20,273 bases of DNA, taken from positions 1 through 20,273 of IMG/VR virus record IMGVR_UViG_3300009104_000152. One strand, given 5' to 3'. The number at the start of each line of letters is the position of its first letter. The first letter of the stretch is position 1. Position numbers and translations under genes: made by a program. This DNA is from a virus. Below the pieces are notes generated by a model that worked only from the letters and a program-made list of their open reading frames with translations, had not been told where the DNA came from and did not search any database. Below are positions 1,531 through 20,273 of the stretch, in pieces.

Positions 1531-2594
1531 AGATAATTATGTTCGTCTAATGCTTCATTATATAACGAAGTCATTAATTCGAATAGGGGTTTTTTCTGAC
1601 CTTGTATTTCTAGTCCATCAATATACTTTTCTAATATAGTAAGAGTGTCTTCTACTCCTTCTAATTCTTTATCGTCCATTAAGTCCATATGTTTATGGTC
1701 ATCTACGACAACAACATGCAATGGATTAGCGGCATGTAATTTGTCGACCATAGAATCAAACCAATATGGATTGTCTTTATTGACTACTATCATCTTCACA
1801 AATTTGCCTGTGAATTTACTGTAATCTTTATTTGATATTGTTTCAAAAGTTTCTTTTGTATCATCATAGAATAACTTTTCGAACATAGTTAATGGATTAT
1901 GAACAGGAGTTATTTCTCTTGTATCTGTATCAAATATGTGGAAGTATTTTTCATCTCCATAATCTGACCATGTGAATTGCATCTGACTTCCTAGATACCT
2001 GATATTCTTAAGTTCTGATTTTTGATGAAAGTGACCACTATAAACTTTGTCGAATCGTTTTAAATATGTGTGGTCTAGACCATGTTGACTTGTCATTCCA
2101 GGCATCATTAAAGCGCCCTCTATTTCGAAATGACCAAAACATGTATCTGCATTGGCATTTAATAAGAAGTCTACACTATCTGCATAGTTCTCATTATTAA
2201 TCCAAGGAACAAGTGCAAGATTAACTCCATCGTATTCTCTTACTGTAGGTTCTGTTATAACACTTATATTATCGTGTTCGAACAATAATAAGTCTGGTGA
2301 GTTTACTTCATTGGTATTCTTATAATAGGTATCATGATTACCAATAATCAAGTCCATAGTAATACCCCTTTCTAGCATAGGGTCTATAAAATGTTCTCTA
2401 TTTGATTTTAGACTTGCAAAGTTTACATACTTTCTTCTATCGAAGTAATCTCCGAGATGTAAAATGTGTCCAATGTTATTTTCATCGAGATATGGGAAGA
2501 ATACTTCCTCATAGAATCGGCCTTGATATTTGGCCATCTCTAACATATCTCCTCGAACACCTGCATGAGTGTCGTTGAGTATCGCTATTTTCAT
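1527..2594 (-). CDS. gp47: Recombination endonuclease subunit gp47 (SbcD/Mre11-like)
   Basis: This is the metallophosphoesterase nuclease subunit that pairs with gp46 in DNA end resection. At 355 residues it is close to T4 gp47 (339). The Mre11 metal-binding motifs appear in order: NDTH (7-10), HLGDYFDRR (46-54), IGNHD (84-88), FGHFE (153-157) and YSGHFH (185-190). All the expected Asp and His ligands are present, so the nuclease looks active. The start overlaps the end of gp55 as ATGA, and the stop overlaps the gp46 start in the same way. The order gp55-gp47-gp46 is typical of marine T4-like phages. Confidence 0.95.
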   Translation of the reverse strand: MKIAILNDTHAGVRGDMLEMAKYQGRFYEEVFFPYLDENNIGHILHLGDYFDRRKYVNFASLKSNREHFIDPMLERGITMDLIIGNHDTYYKNTNEVNSPDLLLFEHDNISVITEPTVREYDGVNLALVPWINNENYADSVDFLLNANADTCFGHFEIEGALMMPGMTSQHGLDHTYLKRFDKVYSGHFHQKSELKNIRYLGSQMQFTWSDYGDEKYFHIFDTDTREITPVHNPLTMFEKLFYDDTKETFETISNKDYSKFTGKFVKMIVVNKDNPYWFDSMVDKLHAANPLHVVVVDDHKHMDLMDDKELEGVEDTLTILEKYIDGLEIQGQKKPLFELMTSLYNEALDEHNYL

Positions 2595-3133
2595 TCAGTA
2601 AATTTATCTAAGCCTTTATCTTTCTGTACTTTTTTTCGTTTTGATTTTCTTGGTTCGTATTGAACACGGTTCATATTGTCTTGCATCCACTCAACATTAG
2701 TATTATGCATACCAGAAGTATCGCCATCTATTGTATCGAATGTATGTGCGGTGATATCTGATATTACTTGTTGCTTAATGAAAACTTGTTTCTTCTCTTT
2801 CTGTATCCTTCTTAGAAAGGCGTAATAACAAATTTGTGTAATATATGCAAATGCGTTGTTAGATTTTTCTACATTGAAGTTCTTAATATACTGAATACAA
2901 TTCTCGATTGCATCACATATCATTTCATCTCTGTAAGTGTAGTTTATAAAGTTTGGTCGTGTAGATAGTCGAGTTGCAATCTTATAGATACACTCTCCTA
3001 TGTAATTTGACATTTGTGGTGGGGTTCTGCCCTCTTCCTCGGCGAGTTTAACGGCGGCGTTATGTTCGGCGACTGCGGCTGTGAACTCTTTGTTATTAAC
3101 ATAATGTTCACTTTGTTTTTTAGTTTTTGCCAT
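2591..3133 (-). CDS. gp55: RNA polymerase sigma factor for late transcription, gp55
   Basis: gp55 is the small phage sigma factor that directs host RNA polymerase to late promoters (TATAAATA in T4). At 180 residues it matches T4 gp55 (185). A sigma region-2-like helical segment spans about 66-112, with YRDEMICDAIENCI, FAYITQICYYAFLRRI and a basic tail KEKKQ. The C-terminus is basic and ends GLDKFTE, which resembles the sliding-clamp-binding tail of T4 gp55 and gp33; that comparison is inference. No Shine-Dalgarno is seen before the ATG. A sigma70-like promoter lies immediately upstream, as expected for a gene needed before late transcription. The stop overlaps the gp47 start. The octamers elsewhere in this window are its probable targets. 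Confidence 0.9.
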   Translation of the reverse strand: MAKTKKQSEHYVNNKEFTAAVAEHNAAVKLAEEEGRTPPQMSNYIGECIYKIATRLSTRPNFINYTYRDEMICDAIENCIQYIKNFNVEKSNNAFAYITQICYYAFLRRIQKEKKQVFIKQQVISDITAHTFDTIDGDTSGMHNTNVEWMQDNMNRVQYEPRKSKRKKVQKDKGLDKFTE

Positions 3134-4677: not shown

Positions 4678-6108
4678 TTACTTAAGCTCGAATTGTTTGA
4701 GTTCATAAGGAAAATTCTCCTCGTTATAAGTATTTATGCGTTCCTTTAAGTGAACAAGGGTATAATTTTGATACCCTAAGTCGTCTGCGATATCAAATAA
4801 CCTCATACTATCTTTACCTTCCACTTTACGAAGACCCCTACCAATAGACTGTAGGTTTCGTATTCTTGACTTGGAAGGACTTGCAAAAACGATATTATCA
4901 ATTCGTTTTATATTAATACCTGTCGAAAAAGTTCCATATGATGCAAGTATAGTATCTTCTTTATTTCTCTCAACAATTTCTCTAACTGACTCTCTATCTT
5001 CTGTATCTGTTCCACCATAAACATAATGTAAGTTTCCACCCATGTCTGCATTAGACATCATATCAAATAACTTTACACCATGTTTTTCAACAAACTGGAA
5101 CAGTACAAGTGTGTTTCCCTTTAAACTCTTAACTAAATTCAATATGAACATATTTCTTTTCTCATTAGAAACAAGATAGTCCATCTCTTCTTGATATGAC
5201 ATTTTCTTCATTTTGGTATGACATAGTATGACACAATCAATATTAATTTGTGCAATTGTTCCCTTTTCCATAAGTTCGGAAGATGATACAACTTTCTTAA
5301 CAGGTCCAAACAAACCTTCTAACTGTAGTCTATGAACTTCTGAACCATCTAATGTTCCTGTTGTACCTATTCTAATTGCAGTAGACTTCATCTTCTCTAA
5401 GATACCTTTAAGTGTTGTTGCCTTAAATAAGTGTGCTTCGTCTCCGACAACCATGTCGAATGTTTGCATTACCTTCTTGGGTGCTTTACTAAATGATTGC
5501 CATGTAGTAATTGTTATAGGTGCATCGAACACTTCTTGACCATGATATATCTTACAGATAGGTTCTTTATAACCATACTCTACAAAATCTTTCGCCATTT
5601 GTTCTACTAATGATGTTGTTGGAACTATGATTACAGTTTTCTTATTATAGTATCTTGCCAACATATAAATGATTAATGATTTACCACTTGCAGTTGGAGA
5701 TAAAAGAAGTTGTCTGCCATATTGCACAGCAGTTCTAAATGCTTCCATCTGATAATCTCTAGGTGAGAAAGGTAAATTTAGTTCTTCTATAAACTGATGC
5801 AACTCTTCTGTTGCTCTTTGTTTCTCTCCTATTACATCTTCTATACCACTAAAATCGAAACCTCTTTCTCTACAAAACTCGTCAACATAGGGTAATAGTC
5901 CTATGTAAATCTTACGAGTTTTTATTGAAAACAGTCTGACTTTGCCATCCCAATACTTATTTCTATAAGAAGGCATGAACTTAGCATTTGGAACTGTAAA
6001 CGAAAAGAAGTCGTATAAGTCTCGTGCAAGACCATCGTCACATTCGACTTTCATAAAACATTCGTCTACCTTTGAGACGATAACTTGATTAGACATAGGG
6101 TTGACCAT
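4678..6108 (-). CDS. uvsW: UvsW ATP-dependent DNA/RNA helicase
   Basis: UvsW is a superfamily 2 helicase that unwinds R-loops and branched recombination intermediates, shifting the phage from origin-dependent to recombination-dependent replication. At 476 residues (T4 UvsW about 500) it has the UvsW N-terminal DNA-binding region (RNKYWDGKVRLF at 49-60). The helicase motifs follow in order: Q-type YQ near 119, Walker A SPTASGKS (137-144), VGDEAH (221-226), TGT (250-252), then ASYGTFSTGINIK and the arginine-finger motif SIGRGLRK near the C-terminus. The start may be 6108 or the Met four codons later (6096); both overlap the oxygenase gene. It lies in the uvsY-oxygenase-uvsW transcription unit. 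Confidence 0.95.
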   Translation of the reverse strand: MVNPMSNQVIVSKVDECFMKVECDDGLARDLYDFFSFTVPNAKFMPSYRNKYWDGKVRLFSIKTRKIYIGLLPYVDEFCRERGFDFSGIEDVIGEKQRATEELHQFIEELNLPFSPRDYQMEAFRTAVQYGRQLLLSPTASGKSLIIYMLARYYNKKTVIIVPTTSLVEQMAKDFVEYGYKEPICKIYHGQEVFDAPITITTWQSFSKAPKKVMQTFDMVVGDEAHLFKATTLKGILEKMKSTAIRIGTTGTLDGSEVHRLQLEGLFGPVKKVVSSSELMEKGTIAQINIDCVILCHTKMKKMSYQEEMDYLVSNEKRNMFILNLVKSLKGNTLVLFQFVEKHGVKLFDMMSNADMGGNLHYVYGGTDTEDRESVREIVERNKEDTILASYGTFSTGINIKRIDNIVFASPSKSRIRNLQSIGRGLRKVEGKDSMRLFDIADDLGYQNYTLVHLKERINTYNEENFPYELKQFELK

Positions 6109-6772
6109 GATACCAACTAACTAGAGATACTCTTGTTCCTCGTGTCACCGGCGTGACTTGGTGATGCACAAATGAAGGAAATACGATAAGTGTTCCTCGT
6201 GCCTTTGCACTGAAAGGTGCTGTCTTGATATATGGATCCACATTGATGTTCTGAGAACCTGTTGCTTTGAGTTTATCAAATAAGCCTGCTGGTTCAATCC
6301 ATTGAAAGTTGCCTCCCTCATATTCATCTGCATCTGATAATTGAATTGTTGAACTAAGTTTTCTTCTTCTACCACCAGGCGATTGGTCACCTTCACCGGC
6401 ATCTGTATGCCATGTATAGAAATCTCCTGTGACTGGTTCATCTGGTCTATGTTTGTAAATTGTATATTGATGATTTTCTACATGGTCCCACTGATGCAAC
6501 CAATCTGCATCTATACTTGCTTGATTTACTCCATCTGTAATTCTTTGTTGAATCTCATTGGGCATGACACTGTGCTCTATCCATTTAATTTCTGATTGTC
6601 TGATGTATCTATCATCATTACCTTCCAATGGATCAGGTGAATCTGGATCCACATCTTTATTACCAATAAGACCTGGAAGAGTTTCTATTTGATTTGCAAC
6701 TGCGTGTATCTTATCAACTTCGTGTGGTGTAAAATAATTAGGAAAGACTACACAATATTGTCTTAATATCAT
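6089..6772 (-). CDS. 2-oxoglutarate/Fe(II)-dependent oxygenase, PKHD-type
   Basis: This is a prolyl-4-hydroxylase-like dioxygenase. The iron triad is visible as WHTDAG (His122, Asp124) and HHQVTPVTRGTR (His204), and the 2OG-binding Arg is Arg214 in the same segment. The double-stranded beta-helix core runs from about 100 to 222. I chose the ATG at 6772 (227 residues) because it forms TAATG with the uvsY stop; a start at 6799 would add nine residues. PKHD-type oxygenases are frequent in marine T4-like phages, but their substrates are mostly unknown. Lying between uvsY and uvsW with overlaps on both sides, it is co-translated with recombination proteins, so a protein or nucleic-acid substrate is conceivable. 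Substrate not assigned. Confidence 0.88.
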   Translation of the reverse strand: MILRQYCVVFPNYFTPHEVDKIHAVANQIETLPGLIGNKDVDPDSPDPLEGNDDRYIRQSEIKWIEHSVMPNEIQQRITDGVNQASIDADWLHQWDHVENHQYTIYKHRPDEPVTGDFYTWHTDAGEGDQSPGGRRRKLSSTIQLSDADEYEGGNFQWIEPAGLFDKLKATGSQNINVDPYIKTAPFSAKARGTLIVFPSFVHHQVTPVTRGTRVSLVSWYHGQPYV

Positions 6773-7215
6773 TATTGACCCGCCATAAATTTGCGCCATT
6801 CAATGGTGTTTCTGATTGTTTGATGTCTCCATGTGATATTATCCATACATCTCTTAATGAAGTCTACAGTGACTTCAAGATATTCTATTTTAGATTTTAA
6901 TTTAACTAAATCTTCATCTGAATTGAAGAAGTAATTCATATCATTCTTCATGATTTTAAGACCATCGAATGGGTCTTTTTGCCAACCAAACTTCTCTATA
7001 GTATCGTCATCTAACTTACCTGTAAACCACAACCACTTATACTTTAATAGTTCGTTGTAGTCAGTGTTTAACTTCTTAAGTAGTAATACTTTGTTGGTTA
7101 GTTCGTCTGAATATTTTGCGTGGAGTTTGGGAACTTCTAAAGATGCAGAATCAAGTTCTATATCATCAATAATGCAATCCTTTTCCCACTCAGCTTTAAG
7201 TTCTTGTAAGTTCAT
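6772..7215 (-). CDS. uvsY: UvsY recombination mediator protein
   Basis: UvsY loads the UvsX recombinase on SSB-coated single-stranded DNA. At 147 residues it is close to T4 UvsY (137) and shares its layout: an acidic N-terminus (MNLQELKAEWEKDCIIDDIELD), a Lys/Leu-rich middle with YKWLWFTGK (59-67), and a C-terminal helix ending IEWRKFMAGQ, which parallels the T4 ending MRAFEAGK. Position next to uvsW supports the call. No Shine-Dalgarno precedes the ATG. A late-type octamer lies about 30 bases upstream and a TATAAT at 7229-7224. Confidence 0.85.
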   Translation of the reverse strand: MNLQELKAEWEKDCIIDDIELDSASLEVPKLHAKYSDELTNKVLLLKKLNTDYNELLKYKWLWFTGKLDDDTIEKFGWQKDPFDGLKIMKNDMNYFFNSDEDLVKLKSKIEYLEVTVDFIKRCMDNITWRHQTIRNTIEWRKFMAGQ

Positions 7216-16167: not shown

Positions 16168-16244
16168 ACTTTTCTCCTGTTAATGTATTTTTACATTGTA
16201 AAAGTTGTTTACACTTTTATTTATATATTTTATTTATCTAAGAA
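16168..16244 (-). promoter_or_regulatory. gp18 late promoter and leader
   Basis: An exact TATAAATA (16225-16218 on the minus strand) lies about 50 bases before the gp18 ATG; the predicted start is about 16212. The leader holds two competing small inverted repeats (TTTTAC/GTAAAA at 16189-16203 and AAAAGT/ACTTTT at 16200-16218) and the AGGAG ribosome site. The hairpins are AT-rich and weak, so a regulatory role is uncertain. Confidence 0.6.
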
Positions 16245-17831
16245 CTACTTTAAACCTTCTGTAGACCATAATTGTCCGTCTGCGTCCACAAATGTTTCAT
16301 CGTTGTTCTGTTCCCCAAATACTCCTGCTGGTAACAAATCATCTTCTATCATTTTCTGTTGTTCAGAATATAATAAGTCCTTTACAGCAGTATCCGTTAA
16401 GTGTGTGAAAAATTCGGTGGTGACAAACCATGCGAAAAGAACACAATTCATGACCATATCGTCATGATATCCTCTGTCTGCCTCGAATGACGACCCCTTA
16501 TGAACAAATGTCATTAGTTCTGTTATTGTGGGTCTATCTACTACAACGAGTCTATTTTCTTCGAGAAGTTCTTTTAGAGTAGAACAACCTACTCTTTTAA
16601 TCTTTCTCGACATCGTAATACCAATATCTTCTGCTTTTGTTAAACCTTGAGTGAAGACATTAGGGTATTCGATATCATAGTGTAATTGAGTAGCAACTAA
16701 CGAACCTTCTGCGTTATTTTCTATAATAACTAAAGATTCATTATATCTACTACAATACTTATTTATTAAATCCGGAAAGAGTAAAGGGCTAACCATATTG
16801 TCTCTAAATGTGCAAACTTGTTTAAAAGGTCTCATAGTGATATCAAATACACTAAATGTAGAGAAATCCATACCTCTCCCTTGCGAAACATCTACAGTTG
16901 TAATATAATTATGTCCTTCTTTTGGTTTCTCATAAACAGTTAAACCACCTCTTTTCCATTCTCCATCTAATGCCCTCATACCTAATAAGGTGTCTGCATT
17001 GATAAGTGTATTACCAGTACCTAAGAAACTATTACCATACTCTTGTTCGAATTGTGCTTCTGAGGTATTTGCGATTGTTTGTTCTTTCCATTCTTCATCT
17101 CGACCTGGTACATCATACCAGTTTATTACAAAATTTGCATATTCTGAATTGCCATGAACCGCACTTTCATATATCTTATGGAACATATTACCTACACCAT
17201 TTGCAGTAGATGTAATAATAACTTTAGAATCTTTACCAGATGTTACCACAGGATATGTCGCAGTATAGAATACTTCTGCATCTTCTACGAAAGCGAACTC
17301 ATCTAGATACAACATATTGATTGACATACCACGAATTGAACTTGAACTTGTTGCGGCCGCCACTAATTTACTATCATTACCAAACTCTATATTACCTTTA
17401 TTCAGTATCTTTACGCCTGGTTGTAAGAAGAATGGCACGGTTTCCAACATGGTAACAATTCTGGCTACCATCTCCCTTGCGATTGCCCCTTTATTCGCTA
17501 GAATAGCCACAGTGACTTCTGGTGTAAATAGAAGGTACCACAATAAGTATGCACATGATGTTATTGATTTACCTGACTGTCTAGCAGCTAATACAACACT
17601 AAATCTATTCTTATCAAAGTGATGTACCAACTCCTCTTGATAACCACGAAGGTTAAAAGGCACAAGACCTTCATCTAGTGATATAATTTGTGTATAAGTT
17701 TCGATAAAATGGCAAGGGTCGTTGGTGCATTTTTGATATTCTGCTATCTCTTCTTCGGTGTATTTGCTCTCTACACCTGCTCGTTTTATAAGGTTGTTTC
17801 CAAGATAACCTTCGTTTTTAGCTTTAACCAT
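16245..17831 (-). CDS. gp17: Large terminase subunit gp17
   Basis: gp17 is the DNA-packaging motor and headful nuclease. The N-terminal ATPase shows Walker A ARQSGKS (83-89), Walker B MLYLDEFAF (173-181, with catalytic Glu178) and the coupling motif ITSTAN (206-211). The C-terminal RNase H-like nuclease shows TTVDVSQGRG with Asp314, VIIENNAEG with Glu371 and HDDMV with Asp457/458. At 528 residues it is shorter than T4 gp17 (610), mostly at the ends. Its ATG overlaps the gp16 stop as TAATG. Confidence 0.97.
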   Translation of the reverse strand: MVKAKNEGYLGNNLIKRAGVESKYTEEEIAEYQKCTNDPCHFIETYTQIISLDEGLVPFNLRGYQEELVHHFDKNRFSVVLAARQSGKSITSCAYLLWYLLFTPEVTVAILANKGAIAREMVARIVTMLETVPFFLQPGVKILNKGNIEFGNDSKLVAAATSSSSIRGMSINMLYLDEFAFVEDAEVFYTATYPVVTSGKDSKVIITSTANGVGNMFHKIYESAVHGNSEYANFVINWYDVPGRDEEWKEQTIANTSEAQFEQEYGNSFLGTGNTLINADTLLGMRALDGEWKRGGLTVYEKPKEGHNYITTVDVSQGRGMDFSTFSVFDITMRPFKQVCTFRDNMVSPLLFPDLINKYCSRYNESLVIIENNAEGSLVATQLHYDIEYPNVFTQGLTKAEDIGITMSRKIKRVGCSTLKELLEENRLVVVDRPTITELMTFVHKGSSFEADRGYHDDMVMNCVLFAWFVTTEFFTHLTDTAVKDLLYSEQQKMIEDDLLPAGVFGEQNNDETFVDADGQLWSTEGLK

Positions 17832-18229
17832 TATTTCTTTTTCTTTTCTTTCTTCAAGAACTTCTGCAACTCAGATGTTGAACCAACATATAAATGATTA
17901 TGTTGTGTCCCAACTTTGGTGTCTTCGCCTTCTAACTTCTTCAATTTTTGTTGAAGGTCTATTAACTTCTCTGCTGTTTCTCCAACAGTTTTAATTAATT
18001 GGCCTGCGACTTCGTATGCACGAGGATGTTCCGTTTCTTTTGAAAGTTGTAATATACCATCTATGGCATCTTGACCTCGTTCTACTAGGTCATAAAGGTT
18101 TTCTCTGGCGTATCTATAGTCTGTTTCCATATTCTCATGTCGAGAAGGAAGTTTAACTACTTGTGTTTCTTTTTTAATATCAGATGAGATATTTAGAATA
18201 TCATCCAATTTCTGGTCTATTTCGTTCAT
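17831..18229 (-). CDS. gp16: Small terminase subunit gp16
   Basis: This 132-residue protein lies directly before gp17, with a TAATG overlap. T4 gp16 (164 residues) recognises phage DNA and regulates gp17. The sequence is mainly helical, with a central coiled-coil-like part (ETAEKLIDLQQKLKKLEGED) as in small terminases that form rings, and a very basic end (LKKEKKKK). Assignment rests on position, size and helical layout. Confidence 0.85.
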   Translation of the reverse strand: MNEIDQKLDDILNISSDIKKETQVVKLPSRHENMETDYRYARENLYDLVERGQDAIDGILQLSKETEHPRAYEVAGQLIKTVGETAEKLIDLQQKLKKLEGEDTKVGTQHNHLYVGSTSELQKFLKKEKKKK

Positions 18230-18231
18230 AA

Positions 18232-19266
18232 TTAAGTATTGTCTTCATCAGCAAAAGTATATCTTGCTCCATCATCATAATATGTCACATTTTCTGCAAC
18301 AACAAATGTATCTGCTGGGTCTACTGAACCAACAAATTTAAGTAGTGTGTTTGCATCAACTGTTATAGCAGCTGATAATACCATTGATAATTTGTTAGCG
18401 TGAATAGATGCAATGGTTGGATTAGTTGATAAGTTTGTTCCAAACACCTCGTCTGCAACACTTATCTTACTGTTTATTGCAGTTGCAAAGGTTACCGTAG
18501 TTGAATTAGATACTGCATTACATCTTTCTCCAAATGCAGGTTCATAGTGTTTAACTTCTTTAATTAGACCAGCGGCAGTTATCTCAGATGTTGAAAATGC
18601 AGTTTGTCCATCTCCAAGATAAGTTCTTTCAATAACATTCTTAATAATATTACCAGTGTATACAGGTCCAAAGAAGTATGTTTTCATTGTAAAGTCTAAA
18701 GTATATTCTATAATTCTTCTATCTTCAAATGAACCTTCATAGTCATCTTGAAAAGATACACTATTTAAAATGACAGGTACATCTCTATTATCAGGCATTG
18801 AATCTACCATTTTCATTGTGACTGTATATTCTGGTTGAAAGTATGGAAGAATCTGTTCTACTATCTGTAATGCATCATTCATATTCTTTGTTAGAATAGA
18901 TAATGTAAAGTTTAAATTGTATGGTGCTGGGTTGTATTGAAAACCTCTCTTACCATCTGCCTCATAAGTAGACTTTGCGGCTCTTATAAGTTTATTCTGT
19001 TGTCTTTCTCTATCATATTCAAAACCTGTAAGTTCAAATGCCATACGAGGTAATGATATTGCACTTCTATTTTTATCTGATAAATTGGGTTCTTCTGCGA
19101 TTCTATCTAAAAACTTTTGTTTAGGTCCATATGATAACGGAACAATAGGAGAAGTCAAAACAGTTCCATCTGCTTTGACCTTCTTATATTGTATATTATT
19201 AAACAAGGTACCAAATACTGATACGCACCGTTTAATAGTTTCATTATAGAAATATGTTCCGAACAT
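18232..19266 (-). CDS. gp15: Tail sheath stabiliser and terminator gp15
   Basis: gp15 forms the hexamer capping the tail and joining it to the neck. Residues 1-250 carry the family pattern (MFGTYFYNETIKRCVSVFGT; SLPRMAFELTGFEYD; VPVILNSVSFQDDYEG; IIEYTLDFTMKTYFFGP). At 344 residues it is longer than T4 gp15 (272). The extra C-terminal part includes a small beta domain at about 253-312 (TTVTFATAINSKISVADEVF, then IASIHANKLSMVLSAAIT). It is coupled to the ACP gene by TAATG and lies 2 bases before gp16. Confidence 0.92.
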   Translation of the reverse strand: MFGTYFYNETIKRCVSVFGTLFNNIQYKKVKADGTVLTSPIVPLSYGPKQKFLDRIAEEPNLSDKNRSAISLPRMAFELTGFEYDRERQQNKLIRAAKSTYEADGKRGFQYNPAPYNLNFTLSILTKNMNDALQIVEQILPYFQPEYTVTMKMVDSMPDNRDVPVILNSVSFQDDYEGSFEDRRIIEYTLDFTMKTYFFGPVYTGNIIKNVIERTYLGDGQTAFSTSEITAAGLIKEVKHYEPAFGERCNAVSNSTTVTFATAINSKISVADEVFGTNLSTNPTIASIHANKLSMVLSAAITVDANTLLKFVGSVDPADTFVVAENVTYYDDGARYTFADEDNT

Positions 19267-19481
19267 TATGCATTGTCCTCTACATATTGTTTTATATCTC
19301 CAACAGTAAATATGTTTTCTGCATCTTCATCAGGTACAGATATACCATATTCTTCTTCTACTGCCATTACCAATTCTACAACATGAAGAGAGTCAGCTCC
19401 CAAGTCTTCGACTAGTTTACATTCATCTCTTACTGCATCTTGGTCTATATTAAGAGTATTTGCTATTATTTTTTCTATCAT
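19266..19481 (-). CDS. acpP: Acyl carrier protein
   Basis: This is a complete 71-residue acyl carrier protein, very like bacterial AcpP. The phosphopantetheine-attachment motif is LGADSLHVVELV with Ser31; the acidic helix II-III (VEEEYGISVPDEDAENIFTV) is well kept. Such proteins carry acyl chains on a 4'-phosphopantetheine arm and would need the host holo-ACP synthase. It sits between gp14 and gp15 with TAATG overlaps on both sides, so it must be translated with tail-neck proteins, not with metabolic genes. It may supply lipid synthesis during infection, alter host acyl flow, or have been recruited for a structural role. Identity is sure; purpose is unknown. Confidence 0.95.
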   Translation of the reverse strand: MIEKIIANTLNIDQDAVRDECKLVEDLGADSLHVVELVMAVEEEYGISVPDEDAENIFTVGDIKQYVEDNA

Positions 19482-20273
19482 TATGGTTCTCCAAACGGAT
19501 TAACTTCACTTAAATCTAGATACGATGTATCTTTCTGTTCAAATTCTAAGTTCTGAGCAGCCGCATCATTAGAGAATGTCATTCTATCATCTATTGATGT
19601 TATTGTAAATTGTGCGCCTGAAACAGCACCAACTAATACATCGTTCACTTCTAGGGTTGTTGTTATGTCTTTAGCGAGTAGTTTACTAGTAGGTTGATGC
19701 CATGATACTGCTTCTGCAACAACTGTGCTACCTATCTTTATATCCTCATTAGCAACATAATCTTTATTATTTCCACTACCCATTGTCATACTTAATGAGT
19801 ATGCTTGTTCGTCTTCTATCAAGTCTATATCTGCAATACCTGTATCGAAATCTTCTTGACCGTATTCGTAGAGTTCACATCTAAGTTTAAATACAAATAG
19901 TTTACCAACTTGATAGAATGGATCTTCGTGTTCTACAAATTTAATTTCAAACATTGAACCACTTAAAGGAAAATAAACTAAATCTCCTTCATTGGGTCTA
20001 AATGATGTTGCAAGGTTTGAGTCTAGGGAAATGAATCTTTCCCAACTTCTTAGCGATATGACAAATGTTGCTTGGTCTCTAACTTGAACACCAAACTTGG
20101 ACATAAGGTCTCCTTCTCCTTCGAAACCTTCTGCGTTTTCAATATACATTTCAACACTGTATGCATCACCAAACTTAGACTGAACATCTTCGTTCAGTAT
20201 AGTATCTTCTTCTATTATCTGCCTTGGCAAATAATAAGTTTCGTGACCATAAATCCTTAAAGACTCAACTACT
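19481..20273 (-). CDS. gp14: Neck protein gp14, 5' end outside window
   Basis: gp14 completes the head-tail connector. The frame stays open to the window edge: upstream of an apparent TTG start at 20230, the same frame reads VVESLRIYGHETYY before LPRQIIEEDT, which is the conserved family sequence, so the true start lies outside. 263 residues are visible (T4 gp14 has 256 in total). Conserved blocks include VEMYIENAEGFEGEGDLMSK and the LVYFPLSGSMFEIKFVEHED strand. A beta-rich insert at about 150-220 residues from the TTG (DIKIGSTVVAEAV, then AQFTITSIDDRMTF) is extra relative to a minimal neck protein. The stop overlaps the ACP start. Confidence 0.92.
   Translation of the reverse strand, partial: VVESLRIYGHETYYLPRQIIEEDTILNEDVQSKFGDAYSVEMYIENAEGFEGEGDLMSKFGVQVRDQATFVISLRSWERFISLDSNLATSFRPNEGDLVYFPLSGSMFEIKFVEHEDPFYQVGKLFVFKLRCELYEYGQEDFDTGIADIDLIEDEQAYSLSMTMGSGNNKDYVANEDIKIGSTVVAEAVSWHQPTSKLLAKDITTTLEVNDVLVGAVSGAQFTITSIDDRMTFSNDAAAQNLEFEQKDTSYLDLSEVNPFGEP

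Follow-up and report, generated by a model that had tools for sequence, protein, structure and literature searches.

A clade of phage acyl carrier proteins recurs at late-gene sites of T4-like phages

Acyl carrier proteins (ACPs) of bacteriophages are already known, but as scattered annotations. The Prochlorococcus phages P-HM1 and P-HM2 are reported to encode an ACP (T4-GC457) together with an ACP synthetase (T4-GC500) (PMC3037559), and roseobacter prophages to carry fabG-acpP-fabF clusters (PMC8224337). A pelagimyophage survey names fabF and a desaturase from freshwater genomes, and its main text makes no mention of an ACP (PMC7029224). Across the literature that we searched, i.e., papers outside subscription, the late-operon ACP family described here was unreported.

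We analyzed a window of 20,273 bases, i.e., the whole stretch of DNA presented here, which is a virus record from a T4-like phage. On its minus strand, the late genes follow one another in the order portal, tube, sheath, gp17, gp16, gp15, ACP and gp14. The relevant features are:

2591-3133 (-): gp55-like late sigma factor (phrog_234, E 2e-59)
16218-16225 (-): T4-type late-promoter motif TATAAATA, opening the next late unit (gp18)
16245-17831 (-): gp17, terminase large subunit (PF03237 and PF17289)
17831-18229 (-): gp16, terminase small subunit (phrog_445, E 2e-44)
18232-19266 (-): gp15, tail sheath stabilizer (PF16724, E 7e-74)
19264-19268 (-): TAATG in the sequence, ACP stop and gp15 start
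19266-19481 (-): ACP gene, 71 aa, ATG to TAA, with the phosphopantetheine serine Ser31 in LGADSLHVVE
19479-19483 (-): TAATG in the sequence, gp14 stop and ACP start, kept at many junctions of gp14 and ACP
19481-20273 (-): gp14, neck or head-closure protein (PF11649, phrog_460), 5' end truncated by the window edge
19489-19492 (-): GGAG, Shine-Dalgarno-like, 7 nt 5' of the ACP ATG, within the end of gp14

The gp14 stop codon TAA (19483-19481) and the ACP start codon ATG (19481-19479) have one base in common, and so do the ACP stop codon TAA (19268-19266) and the gp15 ATG (19266-19264). A first-pass annotation of this DNA had proposed that these TAATG overlaps couple the ACP to both neighbors, and both one-nucleotide overlaps can indeed be read in the sequence. 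GGAG is present in all ACP-carrying loci with the CCATAATG junction and ACP-less loci have GGTG or GGAG, an association that is weak and phylogenetically non-independent. Full-length gp14 of relatives has 284 aa and begins with MPTNVFFNHAV, hence the TTG start listed at 20230 is not genuine. Structured RNA and tRNA were searched across the window, and none was found. Elsewhere in the window, positions 6089-6799 (-) encode a 2OG-Fe(II) oxygenase (PF13640) flanked by UvsY and a helicase gene.

The window ACP matches PF00550 with E 7e-11 (42.6 bits, cut-off 20.8) and phrog_5934, 'acyl carrier protein', with E 1.5e-15; PF00550 was matched by 16 of 16 aligned phage members. An AF2 model predicts the four-helix ACP fold (pLDDT 90.4), and Foldseek aligned this model to ACPs in the PDB (H. 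pylori, Aquifex, E. coli) with TM scores of about 0.9 and above. All 57 distinct phage ACPs examined have Asp30, Ser31, Leu32, Val35, Glu36, Met39, Glu42 and Asp51. The product is thus a real AcpP-like protein with an intact Asp30-Ser31-Leu32 site, as first annotated, and the further claim of a functional carrier withstands the comparison with its relatives, Ser31 being retained in 57 of 57 sequences. A degenerate ACP was rejected because the serine is invariant and dN/dS is 0.2. Median dN/dS was 0.20 for the ACP versus 0.096 for gp15, values that indicate purifying selection on the ACP.

Residues equivalent to the FabF contacts of E. coli ACP (Asp35, Leu37, Val40, Met44, Glu47 and Asp56) are invariant in the phage proteins, and Glu53 is mostly kept. 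Phage position 33 corresponds to E. coli Asp38 and is histidine in the window ACP, which hence lacks this feature of the housekeeping AcpP partner interface. Among distinct phage ACPs the position holds N (43%), H (33%), S (17%) or D (5%), whereas 95% of bacterial ACPs have D. Asp38 touches FabF together with Asp35 (PMC7138838) and is part of metal site A (PMC12469350); in a search for literature on Asp38 in AcpS recognition we found only such FabF-contact and metal-site papers. Replacement of Asp38 could make partner binding weaker or different. Lys64 is found in 91% of phage ACPs; V or I predominates at this position in bacteria. The mean net charge is -16.4 for phage versus -12.8 for bacterial ACPs, and the phage N-terminus is about 7 residues shorter than in alphaproteobacterial AcpPs. 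At one locus, an ORF of 80 aa (L228:4216-4458) directly follows an intact ACP and is ACP-like, with DGY in place of DSL; hhalign against the ACP profile gave probability 67 and E 5e-5, and Pfam gave no PP-binding match. It is possibly a degenerate or regulatory ACP duplicate.

A gp15 search yielded 80 loci, 79 of them with a readable junction of gp14 and gp15. The ACP is present in 13 of these 79 relatives and absent from 66, and in most ACP-less loci the same TAATG directly links gp14 to gp15. Gain or loss is clean in near-isogenic pairs, i.e., L044 with the ACP versus L046 and L047 without, and L107 with the ACP versus L045 without. Over 300 bp the flanks of these pairs are 94-100% identical, and the only difference at their junctions is the ACP gene, with CATAATG at its borders. 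The N-terminal 230 residues of gp15 are identical in L044 and L046 as well as in L107 and L045; the neck and tail proteins are hence independent of the ACP. Comparison of the junction across relatives, a check proposed with the first-pass annotation, also rules out assembly error, because the identical junction recurs in many independent IMG/VR contigs from different metagenomes.

A gp15 tree was built from 71 deduplicated rows, in which ACP carriers are over-represented because many rows stem from ACP searches; on it, ACP presence requires at least eight changes, five of them forced by well-supported branches, with gain and loss counted alike. Synonymous distances of ACP and gp15 disagree in both directions (0.11 versus 0.41 for L011 and L012; 0.56 versus 0.065 for L014 and L037), suggesting that the ACP was exchanged independently of its neighbors; protein distances of ACP and gp15 are still correlated (Mantel r 0.43). 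A structural late-operon protein of a T4-like phage would be expected to be conserved together with the neck genes, and the ACP is not. Neighboring operon junctions of relatives also hold cargo, namely a PrmA-like methyltransferase between gp16 and gp17 and a putative oxygenase between gp15 and gp16. From this and from its absence in 66 of 79 relatives we conclude that the ACP is a mobile accessory cassette and not a part of tail assembly. Metabolic genes had been noted as usually lying outside the structural operon of T4-like phages; the ACP does sit inside it, but in this lineage the operon itself lands cargo.

Several other genes of this operon vary among relatives. The PrmA-like gene (~250 aa) occurs in many of them (L012:3493-4251, L014:6557-7396, L039:6683-7435, L044:3815-4567) and marks a second cargo site of the late operon. 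Between gp15 and gp16, several ACP-less relatives have an ORF of 166 aa (L059:7054-7554) that is 2OG-oxygenase-like by eye and has no Pfam match. At L010:5216-5380, a gene for a 54-aa protein, which has a single likely membrane segment, lies TAATG-coupled between ACP and gp15. In some relatives gp15 is extended at its C-terminus by about 110-130 aa (L044:2002-3423, L039:4927-6291), and L044 shows an internal duplication within this extension.

A profile search of viral contigs returned 292 relatives of the ACP, of which 80 were kept. Their neighborhoods fall into at least five sites, and four of these are clearly among late structural or lysis genes. Contexts were assigned from the start or end of neighboring proteins, and the row counts include near-duplicate contigs:

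Context A: ACP between gp14 and gp15; 39 tree rows, the commonest in the sample
Context B: ACP directly before an Rz-like i-spanin gene whose end overlaps an o-spanin lipoprotein gene; 32 rows
Context C: ACP between a tail-tube-like protein and a 144-aa protein; 6 rows
Context D: ACP inside a curli cassette (CsgF, CsgG, FecR-like); 4 rows
Context E: ACP between a DNA-end protector and the tail tube; 1 row (L013)

Across contexts the ACP mostly overlaps its neighbors by one base. A single ACP copy was counted in every one of 15 long contigs that carry the gene, and seven gp15 contigs without it at the junction, up to 114 kb long, had none elsewhere. The curli cassettes that enclose the ACP (L227:718-4850, L245, L015) comprise CsgF, CsgG, curlin-repeat, FecR-like and cyclase-like genes. 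Class-3 lipase (Lipase_3) genes occur in three of 25 contigs, all context B (L208:5098-5856 and the contigs of L239 and L214). The L208 lipase directly follows the spanin pair and is a possible lysis phospholipase. As a constant partner of the ACP, Lipase_3 was rejected, being found in only 3 of 25 contigs.

The 82 phage ACP rows form one side of a branch against 115 bacterial ACPs (ultrafast bootstrap 99, SH-aLRT 78), and this split was recovered in 200 of 200 bootstrap trees, although the tree has 71 columns, its bootstrap had not settled, the bacterial set is biased by seed patterns and more distant phage ACPs were left out. Of the 115 bacterial ACPs, 34 (mostly Alphaproteobacteria) were included for their proximity to the phage profile or as handles. 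A phylogeny against host AcpP had also been proposed for checking the gene, and in it the phage ACPs group apart from the bacterial proteins sampled. Sites are intermixed within the phage clade, with at least three forced site changes for context A and at least four for context B. A recent copy of a host acpP was rejected for lack of a close source, the best genome match being 61% identical (Verrucomicrobiales; hosts sampled without a named SAR11 set). With the phage ACP profile, the best alphaproteobacterial protein scored 98.9 bits versus 117-133 bits for phage members, which include the profile-building sequences. The nearest annotated phages are Kyanoviridae, i.e., C48C1, Methylophilales phage Melnitz and cyanophages. 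Spanin and curli genes beside the ACP point to Gram-negative hosts.

The motif TATAAATA, the T4 late-promoter core, matches the window at six positions, each time on the coding strand (3961, 7244, 10971, 11744, 13616 and 16218 (-)); 2.6 are expected on both strands, and 6 of 100 shuffles reach six. Between gp14 and gp17 of the window there is none. Across ACP loci we counted 52 matches on the coding strand versus one on the other, a bias to which composition may add, since these loci are gene-dense on one strand. In most context-A loci that are long enough, TATAAATA lies 24-35 nt before gp13 and about 1,708-1,722 bp upstream of the ACP (exceptions are L054, L107 and L265); this placement is read from relatives, including the closest one, L034, as the window ends short of the position. 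Many context-B loci have no TATAAATA within the stretch covered. The gp55-like factor of the window is the expected reader of the motif. Late transcription of the ACP, at the time of the structural genes, is hence well indicated by the TATAAATA matches ahead of gp13 and gp18 together with this sigma factor. Late-promoter prediction failed in the pelagimyophage survey (PMC7029224), so that the simple TATAAATA motif may be useful.

AcpS (PF01648) and ketoacyl synthase (PF00109) genes were found in none of 22 contigs, 15 of them with the ACP, and a PlsC-type acyltransferase in none of 25, although these contigs may be incomplete. A phage-encoded AcpS, ketosynthase or acyltransferase partner was thus rejected, and both the making and the use of holo-ACP would fall to host enzymes. 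On balance we lean towards a phage-specialized, working ACP that is made late, is charged by host AcpS and takes part in, or disturbs, the fatty-acid synthesis of the host. A transcript spanning gp13, gp14, ACP, gp15, gp16 and gp17 would be made late from a promoter before gp13 that is read by the phage gp55-type sigma factor, with the ACP dose set by translational coupling. Ser31 would receive its phosphopantetheine from host AcpS, giving a holo-ACP that would join host type-II fatty-acid synthesis. As a result, membrane lipid or lipid A might be supplied with acyl chains in a different amount or of a different profile during virion building and preparation of lysis, presumably to the benefit of the phage. 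In favor of this proposal we count PF00550 membership, the invariant serine, the fold, dN/dS, the promoter motif, gp55, the recurrence at five sites, the kept FabF contacts, and the finding that a foreign AcpP changes the fatty-acid profile of E. coli (PMC3896788). Against it we count the lack of a phage partner enzyme, the replaced Asp38, the shorter N-terminus and the 66 of 79 relatives without the ACP.

A flood of phage ACP might instead act as a decoy or inhibitor, competing for host AcpS and CoA, inhibiting glycerol-3-phosphate acyltransferase as apo-ACP, or acting via SpoT, such that host phospholipid synthesis is shut down or (p)ppGpp altered before lysis. High late expression is expected from the promoter motifs and the gp55-like factor. 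Apo- and holo-ACP both inhibit glycerol-3-phosphate acyltransferase or fatty-acid synthesis, apo-ACP more so, and SpoT binds ACP but not apo-ACP (PMC3896788). The replaced Asp38 of the phage clade would agree with inhibition, as would the spanin and curli contexts, which are tied to lysis; a lysis role of curli has been proposed (PMC9004378). However, a pure apo decoy needs no serine, yet Ser31 and DSL are invariant in the 57 distinct sequences, and most partner-contact residues are kept; we consider this explanation fairly unlikely. The contexts linked to lysis would also fit an ACP that donates acyl groups to one dedicated late process, such as envelope or lipid A remodeling, that sets lysis timing: the clade lies directly upstream of the overlapping spanin pair in 32 tree rows and within a pelagimyophage-type curli cassette in four, and Lipase_3 accompanies it in the three context-B contigs, once directly after the spanins. 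Yet the commonest sampled site has no adjoining lysis gene and a search of 25 contigs found no PlsC-type acyltransferase, which makes such a donor quite unlikely in our view.

Neutral or selfish cargo that late operons merely tolerate would account for the patchy distribution, with its eight or more changes on the gp15 tree, and for ACP sequences being exchanged separately from gp15. The purifying selection on the ACP (dN/dS about 0.2), a catalytic serine never lost in the copies examined and the lack of mobility genes seen adjoining the ACP leave it very doubtful. Because the gene lies between gp14 and gp15 and, in two other lineages, next to tail-tube genes, a virion-associated or assembly protein that binds neck or tail proteins could also be considered. 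The same ACP clade adjoins spanin and curli genes, however, and what is conserved are canonical ACP features, so that we regard this role as highly improbable. The first-pass annotation therefore stands for the AcpP-like protein, its coupling and its indicated late expression, and is unsupported where it suggested a virion-associated acyl protein. Its proposal that the ACP may redirect host lipid synthesis is still the likeliest reading. Beyond the phage-specialized working ACP that we prefer, the lineage may even be a mobile late-gene module whose partner specificity has changed with the loss of Asp38 and which resets host envelope acylation at lysis; its landing beside tail, spanin and curli-pore genes would then reflect selection for timing. 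We think this extended scenario unlikely.

The present comparison shows a single phage ACP clade that recurs at several late-gene sites in relatives of abundant marine T4-like phages, with near-isogenic pairs that have or lack the gene. Carriage of an ACP at such sites suggests, as far as sequence can tell, that these phages interfere with host membrane lipids late in infection, and the near-isogenic pairs make it testable whether the phages control lipid synthesis of the host while virions are assembled and cells lysed. Conserved late-operon junctions also take up accessory genes via one-nucleotide coupling.

Context-D contigs share with the curli cassettes of HTVC008M and Melnitz (PMC9004378, PMC7029224) the order CsgF, CsgG, curlin-like, FecR-like and cyclase-like. 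The cassette of Pelagibacter phage HTVC008M has no annotated ACP, unlike context D, and in Melnitz gp14 and gp15 adjoin without an ACP; neither tblastn nor the regions examined gave an ACP in isolated pelagimyophages or Melnitz. The ACPs of P-HM1 and P-HM2 and the MED4-213 homologue are found in the same broad group of marine T4-like phages as the window ACP. At 155-164 aa, these proteins have additional parts at both termini and are encoded between baseplate-hub and fiber genes, whereas the window ACP has 71 aa; site and length thus differ from a fiber-region ACP with a phage synthetase, and PF01648 was found in none of 22 contigs. Roseobacter prophage acpP likewise resides on a phage-like element, in marine Alphaproteobacteria, but is arranged with partner enzymes like a host fab cluster, whereas the window ACP stands alone in a late operon. 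With bacterial AcpP the phage ACP shares the fold, the D-S-L site, the acidity and most helix-II contact residues. It departs from bacterial AcpP in forming a separate clade without linkage to fab or ketosynthase genes, in its short N-terminus, in N, H or S in place of Asp38, in Lys64 and in its more negative charge.
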